DNA of 40,001 nucleotides from a virus (IMGVR_UViG_3300047494_000062:1-40001); one strand, 5' to 3'; positions 14,759-29,454 are shown, numbered from the stretch's first letter. Notes: generated by a model from the letters alone, not told the origin. Numbers and translations: made by a program.

Positions 14759-15691
14759 ATGCCTTTTCCCAGCATTATAAATTCCGGGCCGGCACCGGCC
14801 GTAGAAGGCGACTTCTGCGACGCGAACCCGCGCTCGTCTGTCAACGCGGGTCCGTTCGGTCTCGTTGCTGGCACCAACTGCATCATCGGCCGTTTTTGCT
14901 GGACGACCGCGCCCACGGATTTTGACGGCTTTCCCGCTATCGTCAACAGTAACGGCGTGGGGCCGGTGACGGGTTTCCTGCATCGCGAAATGCAAGGCAC
15001 GACGACCGCATTCCTTCAGGAATACGGCATGACCGTTGTGCCCGGCATCGCCGTCACACTGTCGAAGTCGGGCGGCTATTGGGTCAAAAATCGGGGCACC
15101 ACGCAGGCGCTGCCTGGTCAGTACGCCTATGCGAATTACGCCGATGGGTCTGCTTATTTCGCAGCGGCTGGCTCTGGTTTGTCGGCATCTGTCACCGGCG
15201 CCATCGCCGCGTCCACGGCGTCTGTCACCGGGTCGATCAGCAACAACGTCCTGACGGTCACGGCAGTTGGTTCGGGCACGCTGGTTCCCGGCGGCACGCT
15301 GTCTGGCACCAACGTTGCGACCGGCACGCAGATCACCTCTCAGATCAGCGGCACCACGGGCGGCATCGGTGTGTATCTCGTCAGCATTCCCGAACAGACC
15401 GTTGCTTCCACCCCGATCTCCGAGACCTACGGCACCTTCACGGTTTCGGCCGTGTTGTCCGGCGTTCTCGGGATCGGCGATGTCTTGTCCGGCACAGGCG
15501 TTACCACGGGCACGGTGATTACCGCGCTCGGCACGGGGACCGGCGGGGCGGGAACCTATATCGTTTCTCCGACCCAAACGGCCAGCAGCACCACCGTGAC
15601 GGCTGGCACCAGCGTTCAGACCAAATGGGTCTGCATGTCGAGCGGCCTTCCCGGCGAACTCGTCAGGATCAGCTCGACGCCGAACGGCTAA
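14759..15691 (+). CDS. Head cement (decoration) protein with two inserted beta modules
   Basis: The 310-residue protein has an N-terminal fold of the DUF2190/Gp24 structural-cement type: an opening [20 protein letters not shown], then [12 protein letters not shown], then [20 protein letters not shown] and GGYWVKNRG. Cement proteins stabilise the mature capsid surface. From about residue 142 to 283 it holds two tandem Gly/Thr/Ser-rich beta modules that also occur in three other virion proteins here. It closes with [25 protein letters not shown] precedes the ATG. A terminator-like hairpin follows at 15719-15741, before the capsid gene. Confidence 0.75.
15184..15609 (+). repeat. Beta module pair in the cement gene
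   Basis: This stretch encodes two tandem copies of the pattern V-TG-I--N-LTV--V-SGTL--G--LSGT-V--GT-I, then GTGG-GTY-VS--QT--S. Bases 15184-15220 are identical to 20379-20415 in the sheath gene (37 of 37). Related copies lie at 19305-19516 and 29161-29367. Confidence 0.8.
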
Positions 15692-15718
15692 AACTGATCA
15701 TTCCTTAAACCCGAACCG

Positions 15719-15741
15719 GCTCCCTTTTGGGAGCTTTTTTT
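15719..15741 (+). terminator. Rho-independent terminator between cement and capsid genes
   Basis: GCTCCC (15719-15724), a TTTT loop and GGGAGC (15729-15734) form a perfect six-pair stem followed directly by seven T. The capsid frame has an ATG at 15742 whose only ribosome site, GGGAG, is the 3' arm of this stem. It could lower capsid expression or act as a partial terminator. Confidence 0.75.
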
Positions 15742-16944
15742 ATGTCTCCCGGATCATTGCCCGATCCGTCAAAGCTTACTCATTCGGTCCCTTGGGCAAG
15801 GCCGCAGCCAGCGTCGGACGACGTCGGCAACCCTTTGATGGAGCCCTCACAAATGAACCTTCAGGAAGCCCGCAGCAACTGGCTGCAGGACAAGCCTCAG
15901 CTTGAGGCTCTTGGCGTCCACTTCGCGGAAGTGACGACCTACGCAACCCCGGAATCCAAGCGCGACTTCACCCTCGCCTTGGATGCGCAGCCGTCGCTGA
16001 CCACCAGCACCAGCGGTTCGATTCCGTCAATCCTCACCACGTCGATTGACCCGACGGTGTTTGAGGTTCGCTTCGCCCCGACGAAGGCTGTCGAGGCCTT
16101 TGGCGAGATGAAAAAGGGGACTTGGCTCGACGACGTCATCATGTTCCCGACGCTCGAACATGCCGGCGAAGTTTCCAGCTATGGCGATTATGCAAACAAC
16201 GGCACAGCCAACGTCAACATGACGTTCCCGCAGCGCCAGCAGTACCTCTACCAGATCATTGAGGAATACGGCCAGCGCGAGTTGGAGCGTGCCGGGCTCG
16301 CCAAAATCAATCTCGTTGCCGAGAAAGACAAGGCCGCCGCCGATATCATGAATCGGTTTGAGAACTACGCCTACTTCTTCGGAGTGCAGAACCTACAAAA
16401 CTACGGGCTTGTGAACGATCCGGCGCTAGGCGCGTCCTTGACACCCTCCACCAAAGCCGCCGGCGGCACGACCTGGTTCACGGCAGGGGGCGCTCCAAAT
16501 GCGACCTCGATCGAGGTTTACGGCGACGTGCTGGCCACGATCACACAGCTCATCAACCAATCGCAGGGCGTCGTTTCGCCCGACGATCCGATGGTGCTGA
16601 TCCTGTCGCCTGGCTTGGAAATGGCGCTGAAGTTCGTCAACATCTACAATGTGAAGGCCGGCGAAGTCCTTAAGGACAATTTCCCGAACCTCCGCATCGT
16701 GACCGCCATTCAGTACGGCAAGCAGAGCACCCTGAACCCGCAGGGCGTTAACGGCGGCAACTTCATGCAGGTGATCGCCACCCGCGTGCAGGGCCAGGAT
16801 ACGGGCTTCTGCGCCTATTCCGAAAAAATGCGTGCCTTCCCCATTATTCCTGAGATGTCCGCGTTCAAGAAGAAAATCGCTGGCGGCGTCTGGGGTGCCA
16901 TCATCCGTAACCCTTGGGCCATCGCTTCCATGATCGGAATTTAA
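15742..16944 (+). CDS. Major capsid protein, DUF2184 family
   Basis: The protein has 400 residues from the ATG at 15742. The DUF2184 capsid core has QLEALGVHFAEVTTYATPES, then SGSIPSILTTSIDPTVFEVR, then GEVSSYGDYANNGTANVNMT, then YGQRELERAG and NYAYFFGVQNLQNYGL. The C-terminal half ends GGVWGAIIRNPWAI. It forms the capsid shell in an HK97-type fold. The first 35-40 residues (MSPGSLPDPSKL onward) are probably not part of the core, and in-frame ATGs at 15838 and 15853 are alternative starts that would give the usual N-terminus. It lies just after a terminator-like hairpin. Confidence 0.92.
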   Translation: MSPGSLPDPSKLTHSVPWARPQPASDDVGNPLMEPSQMNLQEARSNWLQDKPQLEALGVHFAEVTTYATPESKRDFTLALDAQPSLTTSTSGSIPSILTTSIDPTVFEVRFAPTKAVEAFGEMKKGTWLDDVIMFPTLEHAGEVSSYGDYANNGTANVNMTFPQRQQYLYQIIEEYGQRELERAGLAKINLVAEKDKAAADIMNRFENYAYFFGVQNLQNYGLVNDPALGASLTPSTKAAGGTTWFTAGGAPNATSIEVYGDVLATITQLINQSQGVVSPDDPMVLILSPGLEMALKFVNIYNVKAGEVLKDNFPNLRIVTAIQYGKQSTLNPQGVNGGNFMQVIATRVQGQDTGFCAYSEKMRAFPIIPEMSAFKKKIAGGVWGAIIRNPWAIASMIGI

Positions 16945-16947
16945 CAC

Positions 16948-17445
16948 ATGGGTCAGAACGACATCAGGACAGGCCAGCCGATGCAGAACCGTCAAGAGAC
17001 GCATCGGCATGGCACGCAATCGGGCGACAAGGTTTTCGTCGCGTGCAAGCTTCCCAACGGGATTATCATCCGTGGGATGAAGAAATCCACGGAGCGAGAA
17101 CCTGTCATGGGTGGCGGCACGCGAGAGTTCGAAATCTACCGCCCCGATGGTCGTCAACACACCATCAAGGGACCGGCTGTTCGTTTCGGTGAAGCCCCGC
17201 CTTTTCTTGTCGGCGGCTACGCGTTTACCGACTTTGTCGACAAGGATCTGTATGACAACTGGTTTGAGGCGAACAAAGACCAAGACATCATCACGGATGA
17301 AATCGTCCACGCGGAGAGCACAAAGGAAGGCATCCGTGATTGGGCGGCCAAGCGCGCCACCGTCATGAGCGGCTTCGAGGGGATCGATCCGGCAAATCCC
17401 GGCAAGGTCATTCGCGGGATTTATCAGGGCAGTCGTTCGCTCTAA
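16948..17445 (+). CDS. Hypothetical head protein, first of a paralogous pair
   Basis: The 165-residue protein follows the capsid by three bases. It contains KVFVACKLPNGIIIRG near residue 30 and later FVDKDLYDNWFEANKDQDII. The next gene has the same two blocks in diverged form. The protein is beta-rich with an N-terminal disordered His/Arg/Gln stretch. The position suggests a minor head or head-completion protein, but I cannot name a family. Confidence 0.7.
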   Translation: MGQNDIRTGQPMQNRQETHRHGTQSGDKVFVACKLPNGIIIRGMKKSTEREPVMGGGTREFEIYRPDGRQHTIKGPAVRFGEAPPFLVGGYAFTDFVDKDLYDNWFEANKDQDIITDEIVHAESTKEGIRDWAAKRATVMSGFEGIDPANPGKVIRGIYQGSRSL

Positions 17446-17457
17446 AGGAAAGATAGC

Positions 17458-17838
17458 ATGACGGATCATGAAACTGTCAACGTGGGATGCCGGGTCGGCA
17501 ACGGCGTTCTACTACGCGTTTTCGATTGGATTGACTCAATGGAAGCGCCGGGCCTGAAGGTCGCGCGTGAAATCGGAATCATCCCGCTGTCTGGTCCGGT
17601 TGCGGATCATGGCGAGAAAAGCGGCCCCGCCCCGCTCGAATCCGTCAATGTCGTTGATGCCGATCTGTTCGAAAAATGGTTGGATCAGAATCAGCAAAGC
17701 GACTTGGTGACGGGAGGCTTGGTCTATCAGATCAAGAGCGAGCCGGTTCAGCAAGAGCCGGTTGCCGAAGAGCATCACCCGGAAGAACCGGAGCATGAGG
17801 AAGAAGAACCCGAGCCCCACGAAAAGTCCGAGGACTAA
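17458..17838 (+). CDS. Hypothetical head protein, second of a paralogous pair
   Basis: The 126-residue protein repeats the pattern of the gene before it: VNVGCRVGNGVLLRVFD near the start, then VVDADLFEKWLDQNQQSDLV. The last 35 residues are an acidic Glu/Pro/His-rich tail, probably disordered. GGAAAG before the ATG is the ribosome site. Both genes probably arose by duplication. The role is unknown. Confidence 0.68.
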   Translation: MTDHETVNVGCRVGNGVLLRVFDWIDSMEAPGLKVAREIGIIPLSGPVADHGEKSGPAPLESVNVVDADLFEKWLDQNQQSDLVTGGLVYQIKSEPVQQEPVAEEHHPEEPEHEEEEPEPHEKSED

Positions 17839-17843
17839 TCGCC

Positions 17844-18290
17844 ATGGGAGCAGTGGCTTCGTTCAATTACGCAGCGTGGATCGCCAGATATCCGGAGTTT
17901 GCTTCGGTGTCATCCGGCCAAGCCACGATGCTGTTCAGCGAAGCAACGCTCTACCTCGCCAACGATGGGTCCGGGCCGGTCGCGGACGCAGGGCAGCAGC
18001 TTACCTTGCTGAACATGCTGACGGCTCATATTGCCGCCCTGTACGTTGGCGTAAGCGGCCAACCGCCATCTGGTTTGGTCGGCCGGATTAATAGCGCCAC
18101 GGAAGGCAGCGTCAGCGCAAGCGCGGAAATGCCAGCGCTTCCAGGTTCAGCCGCATGGTTTGCTCAGACGCCATATGGCATGTCGTTCTACGCCGCTACG
18201 GCACCTTATCGCTCCATGAGATACATTCCAAGCGTTCGTCGGGGCCACTACCCAAGCGCGGGCTATGGCGGCTATTTGAGAGGCTGGTAA
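17844..18290 (+). CDS. DUF4054 head-tail connector protein
   Basis: The 148-residue protein has the DUF4054 pattern: FNYAAWIARYPEFASVSSGQ at the start, then a helical middle (LLNMLTAHIAALYVG), and later ASAEMPALPGSAAWFAQTPY followed by YGMSFYAATAPYRSMRYIPS. DUF4054 proteins serve as the first ring under the portal (gp6-like adaptor). The stop shares its last base with the next start (TAATG). Confidence 0.85.
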   Translation: MGAVASFNYAAWIARYPEFASVSSGQATMLFSEATLYLANDGSGPVADAGQQLTLLNMLTAHIAALYVGVSGQPPSGLVGRINSATEGSVSASAEMPALPGSAAWFAQTPYGMSFYAATAPYRSMRYIPSVRRGHYPSAGYGGYLRGW

Positions 18291-18733
18291 TGGTTACGCT
18301 GACGGGTGGCGACAAGTTGCAAGCCCGGCTACGCGAGATAGCCGAAGGGCTGTCTAAATCCTCCACGCTTTCGGTCGGTTTTATGTCCGACGCAACTTAC
18401 CCCGATGGCACGTCTGTTGCCTTGGTGGCTACCGTCAATGAGTTTGGCGCACCTTCGCGAGGACAGCCCCCGCGCCCATTCTTTCGAAACATGATCGCGG
18501 CTAAAAGCGAAGAATGGCCGGATGCGATCGCGGATCTGCTCGTCAAGAATGATTATGACGCGGATCGTACGCTAGGGCAGACGGGCGAGGGCATCAAAGG
18601 GCAGCTTCAGCAATCGATCGCTGACTTCAGTGAGGTTCCTCTGAAGCCCGAAACCGTGGCGCGCAAGGGCTCGGATAAGCAGCTTGTCGAGACGGGAACG
18701 ATGCTAAACTCAGTCACCTACAGTGTTGAGTAG
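18290..18733 (+). CDS. HK97 gp10-like tail completion / neck protein
   Basis: The 147-residue protein starts MVTLTGGDKLQARLREIAEG. It then has a beta strand with STLSVGFMSDATYPDGTSVA, then VATVNEFGAPSRGQPPRPFF. The second half is helical and ends ETGTMLNSVTYSVE. This is the gp10-like or virion-morphogenesis pattern, acting at the head-tail joint. The ATG at 18290 overlaps the preceding stop. Confidence 0.8.
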   Translation: MVTLTGGDKLQARLREIAEGLSKSSTLSVGFMSDATYPDGTSVALVATVNEFGAPSRGQPPRPFFRNMIAAKSEEWPDAIADLLVKNDYDADRTLGQTGEGIKGQLQQSIADFSEVPLKPETVARKGSDKQLVETGTMLNSVTYSVE

Positions 18734-18735
18734 GC

Positions 18736-19110
18736 ATGAACCTACACTCGATCGCATCACGCTCTATCAGTGCCATCAACCCGATGGTCCCGATCACGAT
18801 CCAGACGAGCAATGGCTACACCACAAACCCAGATGGATCGCGCGTTCCTGCCTATAACGCGTACGTCAGCGTTTTGGCGCAATTGCAGCCTTTGGCTTAT
18901 GGCGACTTGGTCAAGATCGAAGGCCTGAACATCACCGCGGAACGGCAGAAGGTCTACGTCTCGGGGGACTATCACGCTATTGTCCGCGTCACCCAGAAGG
19001 GTGGTGACCTCGTGACGCTGCAAGACGGCTCGATCTGGCTTGTCGTCCAGGTTCTGGAAGACTGGCCAAACTGGTGTTCCTTCGCCATTGTCAGGCAGAA
19101 TGGATCGTGA
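18736..19110 (+). CDS. Hypothetical neck protein (stopper position)
   Basis: The 124-residue beta-rich protein has [20 protein letters not shown] in the first half and [20 protein letters not shown], then [17 protein letters not shown]. It lies between the gp10-like gene and the neck terminator, where a head-tail stopper is expected. A stopper role is inferred from position only. The stop overlaps the next gene's GTG start. Confidence 0.72.
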
Positions 19111-19835
19111 CGCCCACCCCGACGCAATCCGATGTGCAAACGGCGCTTCGGGCTTTTCTGATGTCCGTTCTACCTTCTGGCGTGGATGTGGTCGAGGGGC
19201 AGGACAACAGAGTTTCGGAGCCTTCGGATACCGACTTCGTCGTCATGACCACGATCTTGCGCGAAAGGCTCAGCACCAACTTTGACCAATTTCAGGATTG
19301 TTCATTCATTGGGTCGGTCTCTGGCGCGACGCTGACGGTAACGAGCGTCAATTTCGGCACAATCCAAGTCGGCAATACACTGTTTGGTGCTGGCGTGTCC
19401 GCAGGGACGACAATCGCGTCTCTCGGAACCGGTACCGGGGGCACGGGCACCTACACGCTCAGCGCCGCCCAAACCGTCACGTCTTCCAAGATGGCGGCCG
19501 GCACGATCAAATACACGCAATCGTCAAAGTTCACGGTGCAGCTCGATTTTCATAGCGCTAACGTCGGGGATTCGTCCGACATGGCCGAGACGGTTTCCAC
19601 TCTGTTTCGAGACGGCTACGCCACGGATTATTTCGCGAGCGTGAACGCCAACGTCATCCCGCTGCATGCCGACGAGCCGCGTCAGGTCCCGTTTCAGAAT
19701 GCGGAAAGCCAGTGGGAAACGCGCTGGATCGTCGATGCTAAATTGCAGGTCAACCGATCCGTAACGGCGCCTCAGCAATTCGCGGACCAGCTGCAAACAG
19801 GCTTGGTCGCCGTCAACAACGAATACCCGGCTTAG
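19107..19835 (+). CDS. Phage neck/tail terminator protein (LIC_12616-like) with one inserted beta module
   Basis: The 242-residue protein starts with a GTG overlapping the previous stop (GTGA). Its N-terminal half has [20 protein letters not shown] and [17 protein letters not shown]. Its C-terminal half has [20 protein letters not shown], then [16 protein letters not shown] and [15 protein letters not shown]. In this family the two halves are normally joined by a short loop. Here residues 67-136 hold the beta module shared with the cement, sheath and baseplate J proteins. The role is to cap the tail or join it to the head. Confidence 0.75.
19305..19516 (+). repeat. Beta module, single copy, in the neck terminator gene
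   Basis: The encoded segment runs from [15 protein letters not shown] to [14 protein letters not shown]. It interrupts the family core between the LSTN segment and the VQLD strand. It matches the module in the cement, sheath and baseplate J genes. Confidence 0.75.
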
Positions 19836-19908
19836 CGGCCAGTTCTTTCAAGAAGTTCAGAAAATACGCGCGGAATGGCCTTGGCCGTCCGAATGAGGAG
19901 TCTCGGCC

Positions 19909-21885
19909 TTGAGCACGATACCGGCAAGCAATATCGTCCAGATTATCCCCGGCGTCCTTTCGGCCGGCGGCAGCGGCCTCATCTTGGACGGAATCGTGCT
20001 GACAAACAGCACCCGCATTCCGATCGGCGCGGTTCAGGCTTATCCGAACACCTCGACGTCGGTTTCCGCCGTCTTCGGATCGGGGGCCAAGGAAACCAGC
20101 ATTGCAAGCGTCTATTTCTCGGGTTATCTGAATTGCACGCAGCTGCCGCAATCAATTCTTTTCGCGCAATACAATCAGACGGCGGTTCCCGCCTATCTAC
20201 GCGGCGGCCCGATCAACACGCTGACCATCGCTCAGCTTCAAGCCATCTCCGGCACCCTGTCGATCATCATTGATGGTTATACGTATTCCGCAGGTTCCTT
20301 GAGCCTTTCAGGCGCTACGAGCTATTCGTCGGCCGCCGCGCTTATTCAAACCGCCCTGAACAACACGCTTCCGTCCGGGGCATCTGTCACCGGCGCCATC
20401 GCCGCGTCCACGGCGAGCGTTACCGGCACGATCGCCGGCAACGTCATGTACGTGACCGGCGTGACGTCGGGCACGTTGCAGCCTGGCGCGATCATTTCAG
20501 GCACGGGCGTCACGGCCGGCACACAGATCCAATCGCAATTGACCGGCACGACGGGAGGGGTTGGAACCTACGCGGTTTCTATCTCACAAGTCGTGTCCAA
20601 TGCGGTCACGATTTCGGCGACCTATGGAACCCTGACGGTTTCGGCCGTCAGTTCCGGGACGCTTTCGATCGGGCAAACCCTTTCCGGCACAAACGTGACC
20701 GCTGGCACACAGATTTGGGCGCTCGGCACCGGGACGGGACTTGCCGGTACTTACATCGTTTCACCAAGCCAGACAGCTACCAGCACCGCCATCACGGCGA
20801 CCGGCAGTGCTCTTGTGGTGAGCTACGACTCGGTCTCTGGCGGCCTTCTCATCACGTCCGGCAGCATCGGCACTTCTTCCACGGCCGCCTATGCCACGGG
20901 CTCAACGGCGGCTGTGCTGTGCCTGACGCAACAGACGGGCGCGGTCCTTTCTCAAGGCGCCTATGCGCAGACGCCATCATCCTTCATGAACGGCCTGACG
21001 GCCATCACCCAGAATTGGGCAACGTTCATGACGGTCGTCGATCCTGACGGCGGATCGGGGAATGCTCAAAAGCAGCTTTTCGCGGCGTGGACAAATTCTC
21101 AGAACAACCGTTATTGCTATGTGTGCTGGGATGGCGACGTCACGCCGACACTGACGGTCCCGGCCACGACGTCTCTCGGGTATATCCTTCAGCAGGGCAA
21201 TTCTTCGGGAACCTGCCTGATCTACGATCCCGCGAACGCCAACAATATCGCGGCCTTTGTCTGCGGAACGGTCGCCTCGATTAATTTCAATATCGCGAAT
21301 GGGCGCATCACGACGGCGTTCAAATCGCAGACCGGCCTTATCGCCACGGTGACGAACGCGACGGCCGCCGCGAACCTGGCTGGCAATCCGCTCGTGGCTG
21401 GCAGCTACGGCAACGGGTACAACTTCTACGGCGCCTATGCCACGGCCGCTCAGAACTTCGTGTTCTTCAATCGGGGCACGGTCAGCGGTCCATTCCTATG
21501 GCTCGACTCCTACGTCGATCAGATCTGGCTCAACAACGCGTTGCAGCTCGCTCTCATGAACCTGCTCGTGAGTTCAAACTCGATCCCCTACAATCAGGCA
21601 GGCTACGCGATGATCGCCACGGCGGTGCTGGACCCCGTCAACGCAGCGCTCAATTGCGGCGTCATTCGCGCTGGCGTGACGTTGTCCGCCAACCAGATTC
21701 AGCAGGTCAACCTGACCACCAACGTCAACGCGGCGCCGATCCTTCAGCAGCAAGGATGGTACCTGTCGATCCAAGACGCGACACCCCAAGTGCGCCAAGG
21801 TCGAGCTTCGCCCCCCATGGTCTTTTATTACTGTGACGGTGGATCGATCCAAGCAATCAACTTGCCGTCTATTGAGGTCCAGTAA
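19909..21885 (+). CDS. Tail sheath protein, DUF3383 family, with two inserted beta modules
   Basis: The 658-residue protein has a DUF3383 start ([20 protein letters not shown], then [20 protein letters not shown]) and the usual C-terminal half. The latter includes [29 protein letters not shown]-type segments near 505-520 and [20 protein letters not shown]. It forms the contractile sheath. Two tandem beta modules sit at about residues 157-303, after the ALIQTALN helix, which makes the protein longer than usual. The start is a TTG with GAGGAG about eight bases upstream. Confidence 0.88.
20379..20818 (+). repeat. Beta module pair in the sheath gene
   Basis: Two tandem copies of the shared module are encoded here. 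The first 37 bases (20379-20415) are identical to 15184-15220 in the cement gene, and the rest is diverged but clearly related. The pair is in the same order as in the cement gene. Confidence 0.8.
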
Positions 21886-21919
21886 TCGGGTCCATCGAAC
21901 GAATTAGGAGTTTTCAGAA

Positions 21920-22351
21920 ATGGCCTCGGTCACTTCCGCCAACGCAATTCTAACATTGAGCATAGCGGGCTTGTTCAATGCTCCCGTTCAGATCCAAGGC
22001 TTTCAGACCGACGACGTCTATAGCGTCGAGCCTTTGGACGCCGCCGAAGTGATGATGGGCGTCGACGGCGTGCTCACGGGCGGCTTTATCCATGTCCCCG
22101 TGACGGTGGGCTACGCTTTGATGGCCGATTCATCGTCAATTTCTTTCTTCGACACGTGGTGGCTGGCTCAACAGCAGATCAACGATCTGTATTTTGCCAA
22201 CGGTGTAATCCGGCTCAAAAGCATCGGCAGGCTTTACACCCTCACCAAGGGAATTCTCAAGACGTACCCGCCGATCGCCGACGGCGGCAAGACCCTCAAG
22301 GGGCGAAAGTTCACTGTCACATGGCAGTCGATCTCCCCTGCGCCAATTTAA
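21920..22351 (+). CDS. Tail tube protein (DUF3277-like)
   Basis: The 143-residue beta-rich protein begins MASVTSANAILTLSIAGLFN, then QIQGFQTDDVYSVEPLDAAE, then VLTGGFIHVPVTVGYALMAD, and ends ADGGKTLKGRKFTVTWQSIS. It directly follows the sheath gene, as the tube gene does in small myophages. The tube is the inner channel for DNA. TTAGGAG precedes the ATG. Confidence 0.82.
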   Translation: MASVTSANAILTLSIAGLFNAPVQIQGFQTDDVYSVEPLDAAEVMMGVDGVLTGGFIHVPVTVGYALMADSSSISFFDTWWLAQQQINDLYFANGVIRLKSIGRLYTLTKGILKTYPPIADGGKTLKGRKFTVTWQSISPAPI

Positions 22352-22368
22352 GTTAATAGGAGACCCGG

Positions 22369-22845
22369 TTGAGGAAAAGCGCGACTGTCACGATCCGGGA
22401 CGAGGGACGGGACAAGGGTAAGGTTTTCGTCTTGACGGAAATGCCCGCTGGTCAAGTGGAAAGATGGGCATTTCGTGTTTTTTTGGCTTTGAACAAGTCG
22501 GGCGTGGATATTCCAGAAGAGATCGTCGAGTCGGGCCTGGCAGGCCTAGCTTCTTATGGACTTAAAGCCATTTCGGGGCTTCGCTTTGAGGACGCGGAAC
22601 CGCTCCTTGAGGAAATGATGACCTGCATTCAAATCAGGCCAGATCCTAAGCAGCCTGACGTTCTCCGATCTCTTTGGGAAGAAGACATCGAGGAAGTCGC
22701 GACGCGGTTGCGTTTGCGCTCGGAGGTCTTCAAGCTGCACGTGTCTTTTTCCGAACCCGGCGGCGGTTTGACGACTCCCGGATCGACGTCGACGGGGACT
22801 CATTCGAAAAATACCGGAACGTCCCATATTCCATCGGCGCCGTGA
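22369..22845 (+). CDS. Tail assembly chaperone (G-type)
   Basis: The 158-residue protein starts with a TTG (TAGGAG upstream) and reads RKSATVTIRDEGRDKGKVFV, then TEMPAGQVERWAFRVFLALN, then a helical body. The last 30 residues are low-complexity Gly/Ser/Thr. It lies between the tube and tape measure genes, where the G chaperone is found. A second frame, shifted by -1, is open across its 3' end and encodes a T-like product. A T run at 22746-22750 (TTTTTCC) is the best slip site visible. Confidence 0.75.
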   Translation: MRKSATVTIRDEGRDKGKVFVLTEMPAGQVERWAFRVFLALNKSGVDIPEEIVESGLAGLASYGLKAISGLRFEDAEPLLEEMMTCIQIRPDPKQPDVLRSLWEEDIEEVATRLRLRSEVFKLHVSFSEPGGGLTTPGSTSTGTHSKNTGTSHIPSAP

Positions 22846-22979
22846 TTTCATCGGGCAAAGCAAGTCTAGCTGAGATGAACACGGTTTTGTCGATCGAGGA
22901 CGTGTACGATATCCTAGAGGTCATCTCAGTGGACGCCCGCAATCGCGAAACGATGATGAAGAGATCGCCAAGTGGCTAA
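22746..22979 (+). CDS. Tail assembly chaperone T-type region (-1 frame)
   Basis: The -1 frame relative to the G gene continues to a TAA at 22977-22979 and encodes GAVISSGKASLAEMNTVLSI, then EDVYDILEVISVDARN. This is the typical T-type chaperone pattern. It could be made as a G-T fusion by slipping near 22746-22750, although the site is not a canonical X XXY YYZ heptamer. Alternatively it could be a 45-residue protein from the GTG at 22842, which overlaps the G stop in a GTGA. The start given here is the slip position. The end overlaps the tape measure start. Confidence 0.55.
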   Translation, partial: FFRTRRRFDDSRIDVDGDSFEKYRNVPYSIGAVISSGKASLAEMNTVLSIEDVYDILEVISVDARNRETMMKRSPSG

Positions 22980-24780
22980 CGTCATTGACGCCCTTGTGGT
23001 CACGCTCGGGCTAGACCCGAGCGGTTTCTCTAAGGGACAAAAGGCCGTCTCGGAGGGACTTGCAAAAACCCGGGACGAAACGGATAAAAGCAAGAAGAGC
23101 ATCGAGGGCTACGGCAAGTCCGTAAACGAAACCTTCGAAAGTATGACGCGGCGCGCGATCACTTTCTTCGCGGTGCTGGCCGGTGCGAAAAGCATTGAGG
23201 AATTCACGACCAAGATCATATCGCAGGACGCCGCCTTGGGGCGCCTTGCCGTAACGCTTGGCGTGCTGCCGCAAGACCTGTCCGCGATGACCGGCGCGGT
23301 GGAGCGCAACGGCGGATCTGCGGAAGCGGCGGCGTCGTCATTTAAATCGCTCTCGGACTCGTTCGAAGACATCAAGATCAACGGCAATAGCGGCATCCTC
23401 CCGATGCTGTACAAATTGCAGGGTCTGACCGGCGTCAATATCGACCGGATGCACGGGTTCTCCGCTGCGTTGCCGGGAATCGCCGATGCGCTGAAAGCCC
23501 TCAAGGACGCCGGGCGCGACGTTGATGCGGACTATTTTGCCAGGTCCCTAGGTCTTGATGCGGAAACCGCCATCGCCCTAGAGCAAGGCTGGGCAAAATT
23601 CCATGCCGATATCGAACGATACAAGAGGGAAAATCCGCCCGATCCGACTTGGGTCAAGCAAGCTCAGGAACTGACGGAAGGGTGGAACGACGCGAAGAAA
23701 GCGCTTCAGGGTTTTGGTCGCTATTTTGTCGAGACGTTCAGCCCCCTGATGCGGCACGAGATGAGGCTGCTGGTCGATATCCTCCACGGCGATCTGACCA
23801 AGATGCTCGGAGACTACAAGAAAATATTCGGCGATTTGATAGGATATTTGACCGGCGCTTTGGGCGCCATCGGCGACCTGACTAACAACTTCTATCACAA
23901 ACTTTACGGCAAGTGGCTGTTTGACCCGGCCGCACAAGGGCCGGGCGGCCCCGCTGATAACGACGACGCTTCGGGCGGCCCTCGCCTGCCAGGCGCGGGT
24001 GGCACGGGACTCCGGAGCCGGCGCGGCGAGGGGGTTGGAAATGACGCGATCCGTCAGCGCGGCTCGGCCAGGATCGGCAAGCTCGCTCAGTCCGGCAATG
24101 CGAAAGCGGTAATCAATGAGCTGCGTAGCGCCGGCTACAACGATAATGCAATCGCGGCCGTCGTAGGCTCTATGCAGACTGAAAGTGGATTGAATCCTGC
24201 TGTACCAGAAAATGCCTATAATCGCGGCCATCATGGCTTGTGGCAATGGGACAGTACCAGATGGTCTAAGATTTCCGCTTGGATCAGGTCGCGGGGAGGA
24301 AATCCGTGGGATGCGTCGTGGCAGGCAAAAGCATGGATCGCAGAGCACAACGCGAAGCCCGGTGACGCGATCTATGATGGATCAAGCACCGCAGCTGGGG
24401 GCGCGATCCTTAGAGGCAATCCGACCTTGCCACAGGCCGTTCATGGCGTCCGGTTAAGCGAACGTTTCGGCCCTGGCGAAGAGGGCGGCCGTGCCATCAA
24501 AGCCGCGAACTGGTTGCCGCTAATCTCCAAACCTGATGCACCCCTTGTTCATATTGATCCAAAACCAATATCCATTTTTGGTGATCTCAGCGGGGCTGCC
24601 GCCGCCTTTCATCGGACCACGAATAACAACGCAAGCACAGTGACCAATTCGAGTTCAACGAACATCGGCACGGTCAACGTGCACACCCAAGCCACGGACG
24701 GCGACGGAATCGCCAAAAGCATTAAGCCGGCTTTGCAGCGCCATTCGTTTGCTATCCAAGCGAATCATGGCCCTAACTAA
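22972..24780 (+). CDS. Tape measure protein with tail-tip lysozyme domain
   Basis: The 602-residue protein has an N-terminal helical tape measure region (about 1-260) with LVVTLGLDPSGFSKGQKAVS and long coiled segments. Hydrophobic stretches near 60-75 and 280-310 follow. A Phage_lysozyme2-type domain lies at about 385-475, with NDNAIAAVVGSMQTESGLNP and GLWQWDSTRW, and the catalytic Glu is near residue 404. The C-terminus is Asn/Thr/Ser-rich. It sets tail length and helps cross the cell wall. The GTG start overlaps the T-frame end. At 602 residues it predicts a rather short tail. Confidence 0.88.
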   Translation: MANVIDALVVTLGLDPSGFSKGQKAVSEGLAKTRDETDKSKKSIEGYGKSVNETFESMTRRAITFFAVLAGAKSIEEFTTKIISQDAALGRLAVTLGVLPQDLSAMTGAVERNGGSAEAAASSFKSLSDSFEDIKINGNSGILPMLYKLQGLTGVNIDRMHGFSAALPGIADALKALKDAGRDVDADYFARSLGLDAETAIALEQGWAKFHADIERYKRENPPDPTWVKQAQELTEGWNDAKKALQGFGRYFVETFSPLMRHEMRLLVDILHGDLTKMLGDYKKIFGDLIGYLTGALGAIGDLTNNFYHKLYGKWLFDPAAQGPGGPADNDDASGGPRLPGAGGTGLRSRRGEGVGNDAIRQRGSARIGKLAQSGNAKAVINELRSAGYNDNAIAAVVGSMQTESGLNPAVPENAYNRGHHGLWQWDSTRWSKISAWIRSRGGNPWDASWQAKAWIAEHNAKPGDAIYDGSSTAAGGAILRGNPTLPQAVHGVRLSERFGPGEEGGRAIKAANWLPLISKPDAPLVHIDPKPISIFGDLSGAAAAFHRTTNNNASTVTNSSSTNIGTVNVHTQATDGDGIAKSIKPALQRHSFAIQANHGPN

Positions 24781-25124
24781 GCACCACACTGTCGGCTAGG
24801 CATCGGCATCCCAGCGGCTCGACGCCGCCGCAACACTCTCAAGACGGCTTCTGAAACAAAAGAGTTGGGTATGGCCTTGCATGTTTCGGTAACCCAGTAG
24901 TCAACCACGCAAAGGCTCCTAAAGGTATTAGGATCTCCCTCGTCATGCGATTGAATAAAGGCTACTATTTTATCTCGGGCGGCCGTGTTGGAAAACATCT
25001 TAGCGCTGTATTGGCGGCAAGATATTTCGGGTAAAGCTCTGACCGACGCTTATGTTTCAGTCAAAGAACCCGCCGATGCGCTCTGCGCAAGACAAAGCAT
25101 TGACGCAATAGCTAAGAATTTCAT
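24777..25124 (-). pseudogene. Exported HdeA/Rap1a-like protein gene with in-frame TAA after the signal peptide
   Basis: The minus strand has a strong ribosome site (AGGAG) six bases before the ATG at 25124 and a clear signal peptide (MKFLAIASMLCLAQSASAGS). Codon 25 is TAA (25052-25050). The same frame then continues for 90 codons to 24777. The continuation has a secreted, Cys-containing HdeA/Rap1a-like pattern: EISCRQYSAKMFSN, then RDKIVAFIQSHDEGDPNTFR and TETCKAIPNSFVSEAVL. An in-frame ATG at 24998 could restart a 73-residue product without the signal. It is a moron inside the tail block, slightly richer in A and T. The family name is from pattern memory only. Confidence 0.65.
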
Positions 25125-25150
25125 GCTGCGCTCCTATTAAGGCAACCTTA

Positions 25151-25777
25151 ATGGCGTTTCTAGTTTCGGTTCCCAACGTTGCCGGGGTACCTCCTGTCAA
25201 CTTCGCGCCCGACTTTACTTCGGTCGCAACGACGCTCCTGACGGCCGACACCTTCGACATTTTCGGGCTTTTTGGAACCCAGTGGGGCATATACCTTGAT
25301 GGCGTGCCTGTCATCGTGGCCGATACGGTAATCGCTTTCGACTATCGGCAAGATTGGACAATCGCGGATTACCCTCTTGAGGAGGGGTCATTCGAATCCT
25401 ACGATAAGGTAGCGACGCCTTTCGACACGCGTTTTCAGTTTATTGCGGGAGGGGGCGCCGCAAACCGGCAAGCACTCCTTGACTCGATCGCCGCCATCGC
25501 GGGCGATCTCAATATCTACGACGTGGTCACTCCAGATTCCATTTATCCGAGCGTCAACGTCAAACATTACGATTATCGGCGAACCACGACGCGCGGGCTT
25601 GGCCTGATCACAGTGGATGTCTGGTGTACGGAAATCCGAGTCGCGACGGCTTCATTTGGCTCCACCGCATCCCCCACGAGTGCCCCAAACGTGGATGGAG
25701 GCCAGGTTCAGCCGACCGCGCCCACAAGCACCCAGACGACGGTGTTGCCAACGGTCAAATCGGTAGGCTTTCAGTAG
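25151..25777 (+). CDS. Dit-like tail/baseplate protein
   Basis: The 208-residue protein has a Dit-like N-terminal pattern: WGIYLDGVPVIVADTVIAFD, then YRQDWTIADYPLEEGSFESY, then NRQALLDSIAAIAGDLNIYD. The middle strand region is LGLITVDVWCTEIRV, and the Thr/Pro-rich tail is probably disordered. Dit-type proteins link the tail tube to the baseplate. It starts 26 bases after the minus-strand exported-protein gene. Confidence 0.8.
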   Translation: MAFLVSVPNVAGVPPVNFAPDFTSVATTLLTADTFDIFGLFGTQWGIYLDGVPVIVADTVIAFDYRQDWTIADYPLEEGSFESYDKVATPFDTRFQFIAGGGAANRQALLDSIAAIAGDLNIYDVVTPDSIYPSVNVKHYDYRRTTTRGLGLITVDVWCTEIRVATASFGSTASPTSAPNVDGGQVQPTAPTSTQTTVLPTVKSVGFQ

Positions 25778-25789
25778 AGAGTAGCGCCT

Positions 25790-26107
25790 TTGCTGATCAT
25801 CCCCCTAAAAGCCGTCCCGTCACAGTCCCTCACGGCCGTTCTCGAAAATCAAATCTGCCAGATCAACCTTCGAACGACGGCGTTCGGCCTTTTCATGGAT
25901 CTCTACGTTTCGAACGTCCTGATCGTCGGTGGGGTAATCTGTCAAAACCTAAACCTGATCGTTCGGGATGCGTATTTGGGCTTCATCGGCGATTTTACTT
26001 TTATCGACAATCAGGGCGCAACAGACCCGGTCTATACCGGTCTTGGGCTTGCAGGCTCGCGGTATAGCTTGGCTTACCTTTCACCCGCTGATCTAGCGGC
26101 TAGCTGA
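25790..26107 (+). CDS. Baseplate plug-like protein
   Basis: The 105-residue beta-rich protein has PSQSLTAVLENQICQINLRT, then FGLFMDLYVSNVLIVGGVIC and ending SRYSLAYLSP. This is the pattern of small phage baseplate plug proteins (Phage_base_plug type). It starts with a TTG at 25790 and ends just before the hub gene's ATG. Confidence 0.72.
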   Translation: MLIIPLKAVPSQSLTAVLENQICQINLRTTAFGLFMDLYVSNVLIVGGVICQNLNLIVRDAYLGFIGDFTFIDNQGATDPVYTGLGLAGSRYSLAYLSPADLAAS

Positions 26108-26977
26108 ATGGCTTTCGTCCAGCGCCTGATCAATCTTCAAATATCAATGGCGAACGGCGTCTTCGACGGGGGCGGAAATTCGGCAACCCTTGAGGGTCTG
26201 CGGATCGCGGTGGAAATTCAAAATGCGAGCCCTCCTTCTCAAGGGTCTCTCGTCGCCGAAGTATTTGGCCTGCCGCTTCAGATGATGAACCAGCTGACGC
26301 GCGTGGCGACAAGCCAAAACGCGACAGCGAATAACACGATCATCGTCACAGCCGGGGACACTCAGGCTGGCATGATCACGATCTTTCAGGGCTACATCAA
26401 TGTAGCCTTCGTAAACGCTCAGGCGCAACCGCACGTCTCGTTTCACATTGAGGCAACGGCAGCATCTCTTCCCGCCGTAACCCCAATTCCTCCGACCAGT
26501 ACGCAAGGCAGCGGCGATGTCGCGACGATCATGGGGCAACTCGCTCAGAAAATGAGCCTTGCGTTTGAAAACAACAGCGTCTCGGTCAAATTGTCGAATC
26601 CCTATCTCTCAGGTTCGGTTCTGACCCAAGCCCACACGCTTGCTGAACATGCCGGCATCGGCATGGTCATTGAAAACGGAACCTTGGCAATCTGGCCGGC
26701 TGGTGGATCAAGACAAGGTGCGACGCCGACAATCTCGCCTCAGACCGGGATGGTAGGATATCCCGCTTTTACGCAATCCGGGATCATCGTTCGGACCATC
26801 TTTGACCCGACGGCGCCAATAAAAATGGGCGCGAATATTCAGGTTCAAAGCGACCTTACGCCAGCTTGCGGAACTTGGAATGTCGTTCAGCTGGATTACA
26901 GCCTCGAAAGCCAGACGCCACGCGGCGAATGGTTTTGCATCGCGAAATGCACATCCGTGGGGACGGTCCCACCATGA
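26108..26977 (+). CDS. Baseplate hub protein
   Basis: The 289-residue protein has LEGLRIAVEIQNASPPSQGS and LTRVATSQNATANNTIIVTA early, then MITIFQGYINVAFVNAQAQP. Later segments are LAQKMSLAFENNSVSVKLSN, then GTLAIWPAGGSRQG and MVGYPAFTQSGIIVRTIFDP. The pattern fits gp27/gp44-like hub proteins of small myophages. It is followed by the spike gene in a four-base overlap. Confidence 0.78.
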   Translation: MAFVQRLINLQISMANGVFDGGGNSATLEGLRIAVEIQNASPPSQGSLVAEVFGLPLQMMNQLTRVATSQNATANNTIIVTAGDTQAGMITIFQGYINVAFVNAQAQPHVSFHIEATAASLPAVTPIPPTSTQGSGDVATIMGQLAQKMSLAFENNSVSVKLSNPYLSGSVLTQAHTLAEHAGIGMVIENGTLAIWPAGGSRQGATPTISPQTGMVGYPAFTQSGIIVRTIFDPTAPIKMGANIQVQSDLTPACGTWNVVQLDYSLESQTPRGEWFCIAKCTSVGTVPP

Positions 26978-27645
26978 GTGACACCAGCAGCGAGTCGGCA
27001 TCCAGTGGCTTTTTCGGCTTCATGGGAAATGCCGATACAACGAACGAGTTTAATAAGCACTCATTTCTGGTAGACCAGAAGCTGATGCGTGTTCGCACGA
27101 ACATGATGGTCAAGATTGTTGCGGTGCATGCCGATCCGAACGGAGGGCCACCGACAGTCGATGTGATGCCGCTCGTCAATCAGGTCGATGGCATCGGAAA
27201 CAAGACCGATCATGGCGTAATCTATGGGCTTGTCACGCACCGCGCTCAGAGCGGTGACTTCGCGATCATCAATGATCCGGTCGTAAACGATATCGGTTCT
27301 ATCGCGGTTCACGACCGGGATATTTCCTCCCTCAAGGCGAACGGCGGCGACCAATCTAACCCCGGCTCGATGCGGCGTCACGATCCAGCCGATGGAATGT
27401 TTGTCGGACAGACGCTCAACAAAAAACCCAACCATTTTATTCAGGTGACGCGCGACGGAAGCGGAAACGTCACCGGCATAGCGATTACGTCACCGGCCGG
27501 CCTGAATTTCAACGGTGTCAAGATCGACACGAATGGAAACCTCAGCACACCAGGTAGCATCCAAGCCGGAACGGGAACGGGCGACAGCGTGACGCTCCAG
27601 CATCACATTCATCCTGGCACAGCCCAGCCAGTGGCGGGGACATGA
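26974..27645 (+). CDS. Gp138-type membrane-puncturing spike protein
   Basis: The 223-residue protein has an N-terminal Gp138 OB-fold: MMVKIVAVHADPNGGPPTVD, then GVIYGLVTHRAQSGDFAIIN and GSIAVHDRDISS. A beta-helical stretch follows (GVKIDTNGNLSTPGSIQAG), with a His-rich end (LQHHIHPG). It forms the needle that pierces the outer membrane. The ATG overlaps the hub stop. Confidence 0.85.
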   Translation: MSDTSSESASSGFFGFMGNADTTNEFNKHSFLVDQKLMRVRTNMMVKIVAVHADPNGGPPTVDVMPLVNQVDGIGNKTDHGVIYGLVTHRAQSGDFAIINDPVVNDIGSIAVHDRDISSLKANGGDQSNPGSMRRHDPADGMFVGQTLNKKPNHFIQVTRDGSGNVTGIAITSPAGLNFNGVKIDTNGNLSTPGSIQAGTGTGDSVTLQHHIHPGTAQPVAGT

Positions 27646-27648
27646 CGA

Positions 27649-28002
27649 ATGCAGACCCTGCTGCTGGACACTGTTTCCTGGGACCTCGCTCTTGATGTCA
27701 ACGGCAACATCGCTGTTGCCAGCCCTCCCTACGCACTGGCGCAAGACGCGGCGAGCGCGGCTCGAACCTTCTTAAACGAGGTCTATTACGCCACTGCGTT
27801 CGGAATGCCTTATTGGGAGCAAATCCTTGGGCAGCTGCCGCCGCTATCTCTGGTCAAATCAAAATACGTCGCCATTGCAAAGACGGTACCGGGCGTCACC
27901 GGAGCCAAATGCTACCTTAACGCCATTCATAAAAGCCGGCGTCTGACGGGGCAGATTCAGATCACGGACGCAGCCGGAAATCTGTCGGCGATCGGCTTCT
28001 AG
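27649..28002 (+). CDS. gp25/gp46-like baseplate wedge protein
   Basis: The 117-residue protein has LDTVSWDLALDVNGNIAVAS, then LAQDAASAARTFLNEVYYAT, then MPYWEQILGQLPPLSLVKSK and LTGQIQITDAAGN. This is the pattern of gp25- or Mu gp46-like wedge proteins that start sheath assembly. It sits three bases after the spike gene. Confidence 0.8.
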   Translation: MQTLLLDTVSWDLALDVNGNIAVASPPYALAQDAASAARTFLNEVYYATAFGMPYWEQILGQLPPLSLVKSKYVAIAKTVPGVTGAKCYLNAIHKSRRLTGQIQITDAAGNLSAIGF

Positions 28003-28011
28003 GGTTTTTGC

Positions 28012-29454
28012 ATGACATCGACCAACGTTCCTGCTCCTACCTTTGGAGCCACGGGCTTTGTTGCGCCGACGGACGCCGTAATCCTAGATGGGGTGATCGA
28101 GGATATGCAGACCGCCTTTGGGGGCGGTCTGAACCTGGACTCGAATGTCCCCTCATCTCTGACGACGCCGCAAGGCCAGCTGGTTTCCAGCACAGCCGCA
28201 ATCGTAGCGAACACGGATCAGGCGTTTCAGTTTCTGACGCAGATGTTCGACCCAGCTTATGCGTTCGGACGATATCAGGATGCGCTGGCGCGGATCTACT
28301 TTATCGCGCGGGACCCTGCTAAACCCACCGTTTTGCAGATCCAGTGCATCGGACTTCAGGGCGTTGTCATTCCGGTTAACGCGCTCGTCGTTGACCCTTC
28401 CGGCTACAAATATTATTGCACGACCACAGGTACGATCGGTGCCGGCGGTAACATCACGCTGGCCTTTGCCAATCAGACACCTGGGCCAATAGCGGCGCCA
28501 GCTTCGGTTTCGATCTACCAGTCGATTCCCGGCTGGGACAGCGTCACAGTTTCGTCGAGTGTTGTCGGGAACGACGTAGAGTCACGTGACGACTTCGAGC
28601 ACCGTCGCCAACTCTCTGTCGCCCATAACTCTCTTGGCTCTCTTCCTTCAGTCGTTGGGGCGGTCCTCAGCGTGAACAACGTCATTGATGCGTTCGTCAC
28701 AGAGAATGTCTCGAATACGTCGCAGACCATAGGGGGCGTTCTTCTTAATCCCAACTCGATTTATGTTGCTGCGGTTGGAGGCGCGTCGCTCGACATCGCA
28801 ACGGCGATTTGGCAGCACAAAGCGCCGGGGTGCGGCTACAATGGAAACACGAGCGTTACGGTCTACGATACGCAGTCGGGCTACAGCCCACCTTATCCTT
28901 CGTATCAGGTTTCTTTTCAGGTTCCATCGTCGCTTCAGATCGTTTTTGCCGTCGTCATTAAAAACAGCGGTCTCGTTCCAAGCAATGCCGCGACCCTAAT
29001 CCAAAATGCGATCATAGGAGCATTTGCCGGGACGGATGGATTAGGCCGCGTCAGAATTGGCACGACCGTTCTTGCCAGCCGGTTCTATTCTCCTATTGCG
29101 GCCCTGGGATCATGGGCGCAGATCGTCTCAATTGAGATTGGCTCAATCAACGCGTCGAGCGCCAAATTCGCAGGTGCCATCAGCGGAAATACGCTGACTG
29201 TCAGCTCGGTTACATCCGGCACGATTGCGATAGGCCAGAGCCTTTTGGATGCGACCGGTACCGTCGCGGCCGGTACCGTCATTCAGGCATTGGGAACGGG
29301 CACGGGTGGAACGGGCACCTATACGATCAACAATTCTCAGAAAATTTCGACGGAGACTATGTATGGCGTTTCGCCGACCCTTTTTCAGGTCGGCGTCAAC
29401 ATCAACCAGTACCCCGTCGTATCGGCCGCAAATATCAGCGTGACGACGGTTTAG
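28012..29454 (+). CDS. Baseplate J-like protein with one inserted beta module
   Basis: The 480-residue protein has the baseplate_J core: [20 protein letters not shown] early, then [20 protein letters not shown], then [20 protein letters not shown] and [20 protein letters not shown]. Later parts include [20 protein letters not shown] and the closing [20 protein letters not shown] single beta module at residues 384-451 separates the last two segments, where family members usually have a short loop. It is a baseplate wedge component. Confidence 0.88.
29161..29367 (+). repeat. Beta module, single copy, in the baseplate J gene
   Basis: The encoded segment starts [17 protein letters not shown], contains [10 protein letters not shown], and ends near [13 protein letters not shown]. 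It matches the modules in the cement, neck and sheath genes and sits in a loop near the C-terminus. Confidence 0.75.

Follow-up and report, generated by a model that had tools for sequence, protein, structure and literature searches.

The window, a virus record of 40,001 bases (IMGVR_UViG_3300047494_000062:1-40001) that was analysed over its whole length, encodes a beta-type module of about 65-70 residues that occurs six times in four virion proteins, namely twice in the capsid cement protein, once in the neck terminator, twice in the contractile tail sheath protein, and once in the baseplate J-like protein (J). This module probably represents a surface decoration, in which a beta domain carried by exposed loops would form a sticky coat of low affinity that is optional in phage lineages. 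All six copies are in frame, each inside a single open reading frame (ORF), as follows:

15221..15433, + strand, module cement A (profile E 8e-29; leave-one-out score 64.8 bits)
15422..15613, + strand, module cement B (profile E 1.4e-25; leave-one-out score 68.1 bits)
19299..19505, + strand, module neck (profile E 9.9e-29; linker of 69-81 residues with module, median of 8 residues without)
20416..20628, + strand, module sheath A (profile E 1.9e-28; part of the sheath pair modelled with AlphaFold2)
20614..20805, + strand, module sheath B (profile E 1.3e-27; part of the sheath pair modelled with AlphaFold2)
29161..29367, + strand, module J (profile E 8.3e-28; leave-one-out score 64.0 bits)

The initial annotation, made from the sequence alone, had placed these six copies in the same four proteins between positions 15184 and 29367, which was confirmed, 15184 being the first base of a leader that precedes the cement pair and is shared with the sheath gene, and 29367 being the end of the J copy. 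Indeed, upon alignment of the copies at DNA and protein level, a profile built from them gave exactly six matches in the record (15221-15427, 15419-15613, 19302-19505, 20416-20622, 20605-20802, and 29164-29364), without internal stops. Scored with a leave-one-out profile of the other five copies, the real copies reached 63.5-71.7 bits versus 6.5-10.9 bits for the best of 1000 composition-preserving shuffles, indicating that they have more in common than composition. At the protein level, the other copies are 39-58% identical to the first one, and a consensus of 65 residues was derived from 391 modules. Ser, Thr, and Gly account for half of the module residues, and charged residues (Lys, Arg, Asp, and Glu) make up 2.7% of the modules versus 11.3% of the host cores.

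The four proteins that carry the module are encoded by the following genes:

14759..15691, + strand, minor head or capsid cement protein (310 residues), two tandem modules just upstream of the last core strand
19074..19835, + strand, neck (tail) terminator protein, one module within a loop
19909..21885, + strand, contractile tail sheath protein (658 residues), two tandem modules
28012..29454, + strand, baseplate J-like protein, one module between the last core strands

Residues 1-157 of the cement protein match phrog_2122 (9e-28), without a direct match in Pfam. It can be aligned to module-free relatives of 162-168 residues that match PF23982 or PF22758 (5e-15 to 7e-36), the XM1 gp53 and the E217 gp24/Pam3 gp6 cement families, respectively. 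By this alignment, the core of the protein encoded at 14759..15691 is assigned to these capsid cement families. The neck terminator matches PF23961 (1.2e-21) in two stretches that flank the insert, as well as NF047498 (4.2e-19), and has module-free relatives of 168-183 residues. Similarly, the match of the sheath protein to PF11863/DUF3383 (4.4e-112) is split in two stretches. The baseplate J-like protein matches PF04865 (2.5e-8, above the curated cutoff) and phrog_6 (1.9e-42), and has module-free relatives of 404-410 residues.

That the module is inserted in protein loops, as had been proposed, is supported by these relatives. When the four proteins were compared with those of Amjad_SA, PA-1, and Bcep1 (for J, the first two only), both flanks aligned and the module appeared as a gap; module-free relatives thus need clean gaps in these regions. 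The insertion points are situated before the last strand in the cement protein, in one loop of the neck protein, before the last core strand in J, and after AALIQTAL and before the VVSYD hairpin in the sheath protein. Among the relatives, insertion takes place nearly always at core columns 149/154 of the sheath, at two sites of the neck (63/71 and 27/30), and at no fewer than two well-supported sites of J (381/387 and 236/242). Linkers grow in whole units, with medians of 6, 80, and 152 residues at the sheath site and of 8, 73, and 155 residues at the neck site for zero, one, and two modules, respectively, the longest "zero-module" sheath linkers being artefacts of the alignment, in which part of a module was absorbed. 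Tandem arrays of two to three units occur most often in cement and sheath, the lattice proteins of highest copy number. Two neck proteins (L186:8721-9467 and L286:8123-8866) carry an unrelated domain of about 80 residues at the module site, and in a J protein (L283:18826-20946) the same C-terminal site holds the module together with about 190 extra residues that resemble a separate beta domain.

Structure prediction supports the view that the module is a real, independently folding domain. AlphaFold2, run on the sheath pair with an alignment of 59 related tandem pairs, gave an all-beta model with a mean predicted local distance difference test score (pLDDT) of 96.1 and a predicted template modelling (TM) score of 0.87, so that the separate domain expected by the initial annotation was recovered and a resemblance in composition only did not hold. 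In a model of the full sheath protein (pLDDT 86.1), whose best match in the PDB by Foldseek is the E217 sheath (8env; E 2.4e-23), the insert comprises residues 156-298 approximately, between helix 139-150 and the beta hairpin formed by strands 303-316. Sequence matches to the E217 sheath cover its residues 4-162 on the N-terminal side of the insert and 174-465 on the C-terminal side, which places the insert near E217 residue 160-174. The smaller pyocin sheath lacks domain A of E217 (PMC10329688), and a survey of sheath proteins found additional domains to be positioned away from the tail tube (PMC9230969). By analogy, the sheath insert would sit at the sheath periphery. The cement homologue E217 gp24 forms protrusions on the head surface (PMC10329688).

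A Foldseek search of the pLDDT-96 model against solved structures returned no match at E < 0.001, the top matches being a chain of Arthrobacter phage Bridgette (8eci_1; prob 0.99, E 0.21), ubiquitin E1, probably at its FCCH region, and barrels of the elongation-factor type. Likewise, a sequence search against PDB chains gave no credible match to the module. Among predicted viral structures (BFVD), 18 entries matched the module at E < 0.001. The best of these is a collagen-repeat protein from the giant virus Indivirus (TM 0.91, 48% identity); phage proteins with the annotations P22 gp10-like, HK97 capsid, and side tail fibre come next. Two collagen-repeat proteins of Indivirus ILV1, A0A1V0SDM6 (48% identity) and A0A1V0SCQ2 (33%), match the predicted fold, contamination of the contig being possible.

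The module is common in homologues of the four proteins, occurring in 98 of 106 cement, 91 of 145 sheath, 68 of 138 neck, and 38 of 60 J proteins, counts that are inflated in that part of the loci had been picked for carrying it. Among loci picked by the sheath core or the capsid gene (L255-L336), it was found in 27 of 33 cement, 51 of 83 sheath, 34 of 79 neck, and 24 of 43 J proteins; locus scans seeded with the neck found nothing, and those seeded with the capsid gene found only two loci. No module was present in homologues of the portal (0/59), major capsid (0/139), tube-position gene (0/132), tape measure (0/105), protease (0/123), chaperone (0/123), hub (0/74), and wedge (0/61) products, and the proteins that are module-free in the full set also lacked it in the L255-L336 subset. 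A few other sets of homologues of window genes contained one to five module carriers each.

The module is widespread in viral contigs among the matches listed, in which the host ORFs carrying it formed 48 clusters. In other phages it is carried by proteins of head closure and of the collar, by a different cement family, by major capsid-like proteins, by fibres, and by a GDSL esterase, so that its absence from capsid proteins is limited to the lineage of the window. Furthermore, it is not restricted to viruses, as a Bacteroidota protein of 2296 residues (L238:3913-10800) contains five tandem modules, four GEVED stretches, an fn3 domain, and a Por_Secre_tail sorting domain. Contigs L230, L234, and L236 of Sphingopyxis flava R11H encode module proteins that differ in length and show equal identity to the query (67%), which suggests paralogues or several prophages. 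Modules were found by means of profiles and degenerate patterns; a tblastn search of phage records with one module gave no match, probably because of the low-complexity filter. Pfam and NCBIfam hold no model of the module and no prior description of it was found in the open literature, which is not proof of absence and suggests that the module is undescribed so far.

Presence of the module is inherited but labile, since fewer changes are needed on the tree than with shuffled labels. On a quick sheath tree of 111 rows, from which genes at contig ends had been removed, presence or absence changed at least 12 times for the sheath, at least 11 times for the neck, at least 6 times for the cement protein, and at least 4 times for J, versus averages of 32, 37, 10, and 12 changes, respectively, for shuffled labels; these counts score sub-threshold modules as absent and do not separate gain from loss. 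Intact close pairs that differ by one module are the J proteins of L300 and L274 and the neck proteins of L154 and L268, the J pairs L256/L257 and L283/L287 having been left out because their genes are cut at contig ends.

The mean identity of modules was 0.554 at the same site of different phages, 0.456 in different proteins of the same phage, and 0.460 in different proteins of different phages. Hence, the copy at each site is mostly old and inherited with its site, with repeated gain and loss. An earlier proposal that the module spreads inside one phage genome is not supported by these values, as copies of the same genome are no closer than those of different genomes. It holds in part for the tandem pairs of cement and sheath, which derive from one ancestral pair, and for a private identity of 37 nucleotides. 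Indeed, cement A and sheath A (0.51) and cement B and sheath B (0.47) are closer to each other than A and B are within one protein family (0.42-0.43), indicating that the tandem pair moved as a unit, long ago; cement and sheath copies of the same genome were not significantly closer than those of different genomes. Cross-family DNA identity of whole modules peaks near 74-78%, with no case found in which a whole module had recently been copied between proteins at DNA level. Units would thus be gained, lost, and tandemly duplicated as a whole at a few tolerated loop sites, leaving the core fold undisturbed.

In the DNA of the window, the cement and sheath genes are about 71-72% identical over two stretches of 180-190 nucleotides, and the only further DNA repeat listed among the modules is a stretch of 37 nucleotides in the cement, neck, and J copies (65-81% identical). 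In addition, an exact repeat precedes the cement and sheath pairs:

15184..15220, + strand, 37-nucleotide leader of the cement pair, encoding 12 residues, identical to the sheath leader
20379..20415, + strand, 37-nucleotide leader of the sheath pair, an exact copy of 15184..15220

No such exact match is expected by chance (0 expected), and it is unique to the window among the gene pairs tested. The leader was considered as a mobile DNA signature and rejected as such, since an exact search with its core gave no match in viral contigs and relatives of the window keep the leader peptide only, not the DNA identity. It is best read as the result of a recent, private local conversion.

Sequence evolution points to maintenance of the module by purifying selection. 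Among 221 pairs drawn from close relatives, with some overlap between pairs, the median ratio of nonsynonymous to synonymous substitution rates (dN/dS) was as low as 0.18 in the modules, compared with 0.15 in the cores. In some neck pairs, the module is much more divergent than the core, as in L139/L145 (dS 0.54 in the module versus 0.11 in the core), which suggests that this neck module was replaced through recombination.

The preferred reading is that of a rigid, nearly uncharged Thr/Gly/Ser-rich beta domain inserted in exposed loops of virion proteins. With cement, neck, sheath periphery, and J all decorated, each particle would probably bear hundreds of copies, directed outwards in the assembled virion, and such a many-copy coat of low affinity may adhere to, and thereby prolong contact with, the cell surface or the surrounding matrix. 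This contact would precede receptor binding, as proposed for phage immunoglobulin (Ig)-like domains (PMC9022992, PMC9230969). Sugar binding by the module is plausible. The proposed decoration of external virion parts stands as far as the exterior cement protein, the peripheral position in the sheath, as judged from E217, and the absence from internal proteins are concerned. What weighs against it is that the exposure of the neck and J copies would follow from homologous positions, and that the conserved module positions are mostly Gly, Val, and Thr, with one Tyr, and form no obvious conserved ligand site. Moreover, Ser/Thr-rich beta domains can serve as spacers or lattice stabilisers. The main rival, which is judged unlikely, is of that kind and holds that modules on adjacent cement or sheath subunits touch and stabilise head and tail, without an external ligand. 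The prevalence of two to three tandem units in these high-copy lattice proteins would suit such a glue, as would the extra sheath domain of phage 812, proposed to stabilise the sheath disc (PMC9230969). However, neck and J, which are present in few copies, also carry the module, as do tail fibres, collar proteins, and an esterase, and many close relatives lack it in one or more of the four proteins.

A neutral or selfish insert, i.e. recombination-prone sequence landing in harmless loops, is more doubtful still. The same sites gain and lose the module repeatedly, the 37-nucleotide identical patch reflects local copying between two genes, and the neck site also takes an unrelated domain, all of which such an insert might explain. 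Yet, purifying selection weakens this explanation, the dN/dS of the module being near that of the core proteins, and neither the lack of recent whole-module DNA copying between proteins, nor the fact that sharing a genome does not make copies more alike, nor the internal proteins without module agree with it. Least probable of all is a variant phage Ig-like domain (Big_2, I-set or FN3) missed by sequence models. The lifestyle would be the same, that of an optional beta domain occurring in many different virion proteins (PMC9022992), but no Ig-like family of Pfam or NCBIfam matched the four window proteins at E up to 0.1, and Foldseek of the predicted fold gave no good Ig structure, antibody chains appearing with prob 0.02 only.

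By sequence and fold searches, the module is not Ig-like, yet it behaves as Ig-like domains do. Weak binding to surfaces is the role proposed for phage Ig-like domains (Big_1/Big_2, I-set, FN3; Fraser et al. 2006, as cited in PMC9022992). Like them, the module is an optional, independently folding beta unit that occurs across several classes of virion proteins, often on the outside. Unlike Ig-like domains, the module belongs to another sequence family and, according to the model, is not an Ig sandwich. Its copies are internal loop inserts, some in tandem, in the cement, neck, sheath, and J proteins of one phage, and lie within ORFs, whereas Ig-like domains are often, albeit not in every case, added by programmed frameshift. 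Extra domains of phage sheaths, mostly Ig-like, have been proposed to help adhesion or stability (PMC9230969); the module resembles them as a beta unit added onto a sheath core, but differs from them in family, is added in whole multiples, and is found in cement, neck, and baseplate proteins too.

The four window proteins match the profiles phrog_21413 (unknown) and phrog_38233 (tail fiber protein), because these contain the module, at positions 400-467 and 550-625 approximately. Both are whole-protein clusters, and no tested library models the module alone. The nearest solved folds, 8eci_1 and ubiquitin E1, the latter probably at its FCCH domain (PF16190), match at E 0.2-3, which leaves homology unsupported, and the FCCH domain, unlike the module, belongs to an enzyme. 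Matches to PF16190 occur in two module proteins, being weak (0.002) or at threshold (6e-07), and are situated at residues 127-182 of L056 (module at 497-564) and 859-918 of L228 (module at 932-997). The module was thus rejected as an E1 FCCH domain, all these matches falling outside it.

It is conceivable, although somewhat short of probable, that the module represents an unnamed non-Ig superfamily that moves as a whole among exposed virion loops of tailed phages and is shared by secreted proteins of the cell surface and collagen-like proteins of giant viruses, the loop hotspots acting as ports for the exchange of beta domains. If so, it would be a sticky unit common to particle and cell surfaces, Ig-like domains having been the standard example of promiscuous phage surface domains so far. 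The module probably escapes routine searches owing to its low complexity, and the 'tail fiber' profile may lead automatic annotation to wrong labels for cement, neck, and sheath proteins. Close relatives, which include prophages of soil bacteria that can be cultured, offer a natural series of zero, one, and two modules at fixed sites, by which the long-standing question of the function of such decorations becomes directly testable.

The gene order of the window is that of a tailed phage, with terminase, portal, head morphogenesis, protease, cement, major capsid, and connector genes, followed by those for the neck terminator, sheath, chaperone, tape measure, hub, wedge, J, and fibres. The neighbouring ORFs at 16948-17445 and 17458-17838, behind the major capsid gene, both match phrog_2085 and are apparently tandem paralogues. 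Downstream of the fibres, an ORF at 35651-36112 matches the C-terminal part of the tape-measure family phrog_9570 (3.6e-13), separate from the tape measure gene itself at 22972-24780.

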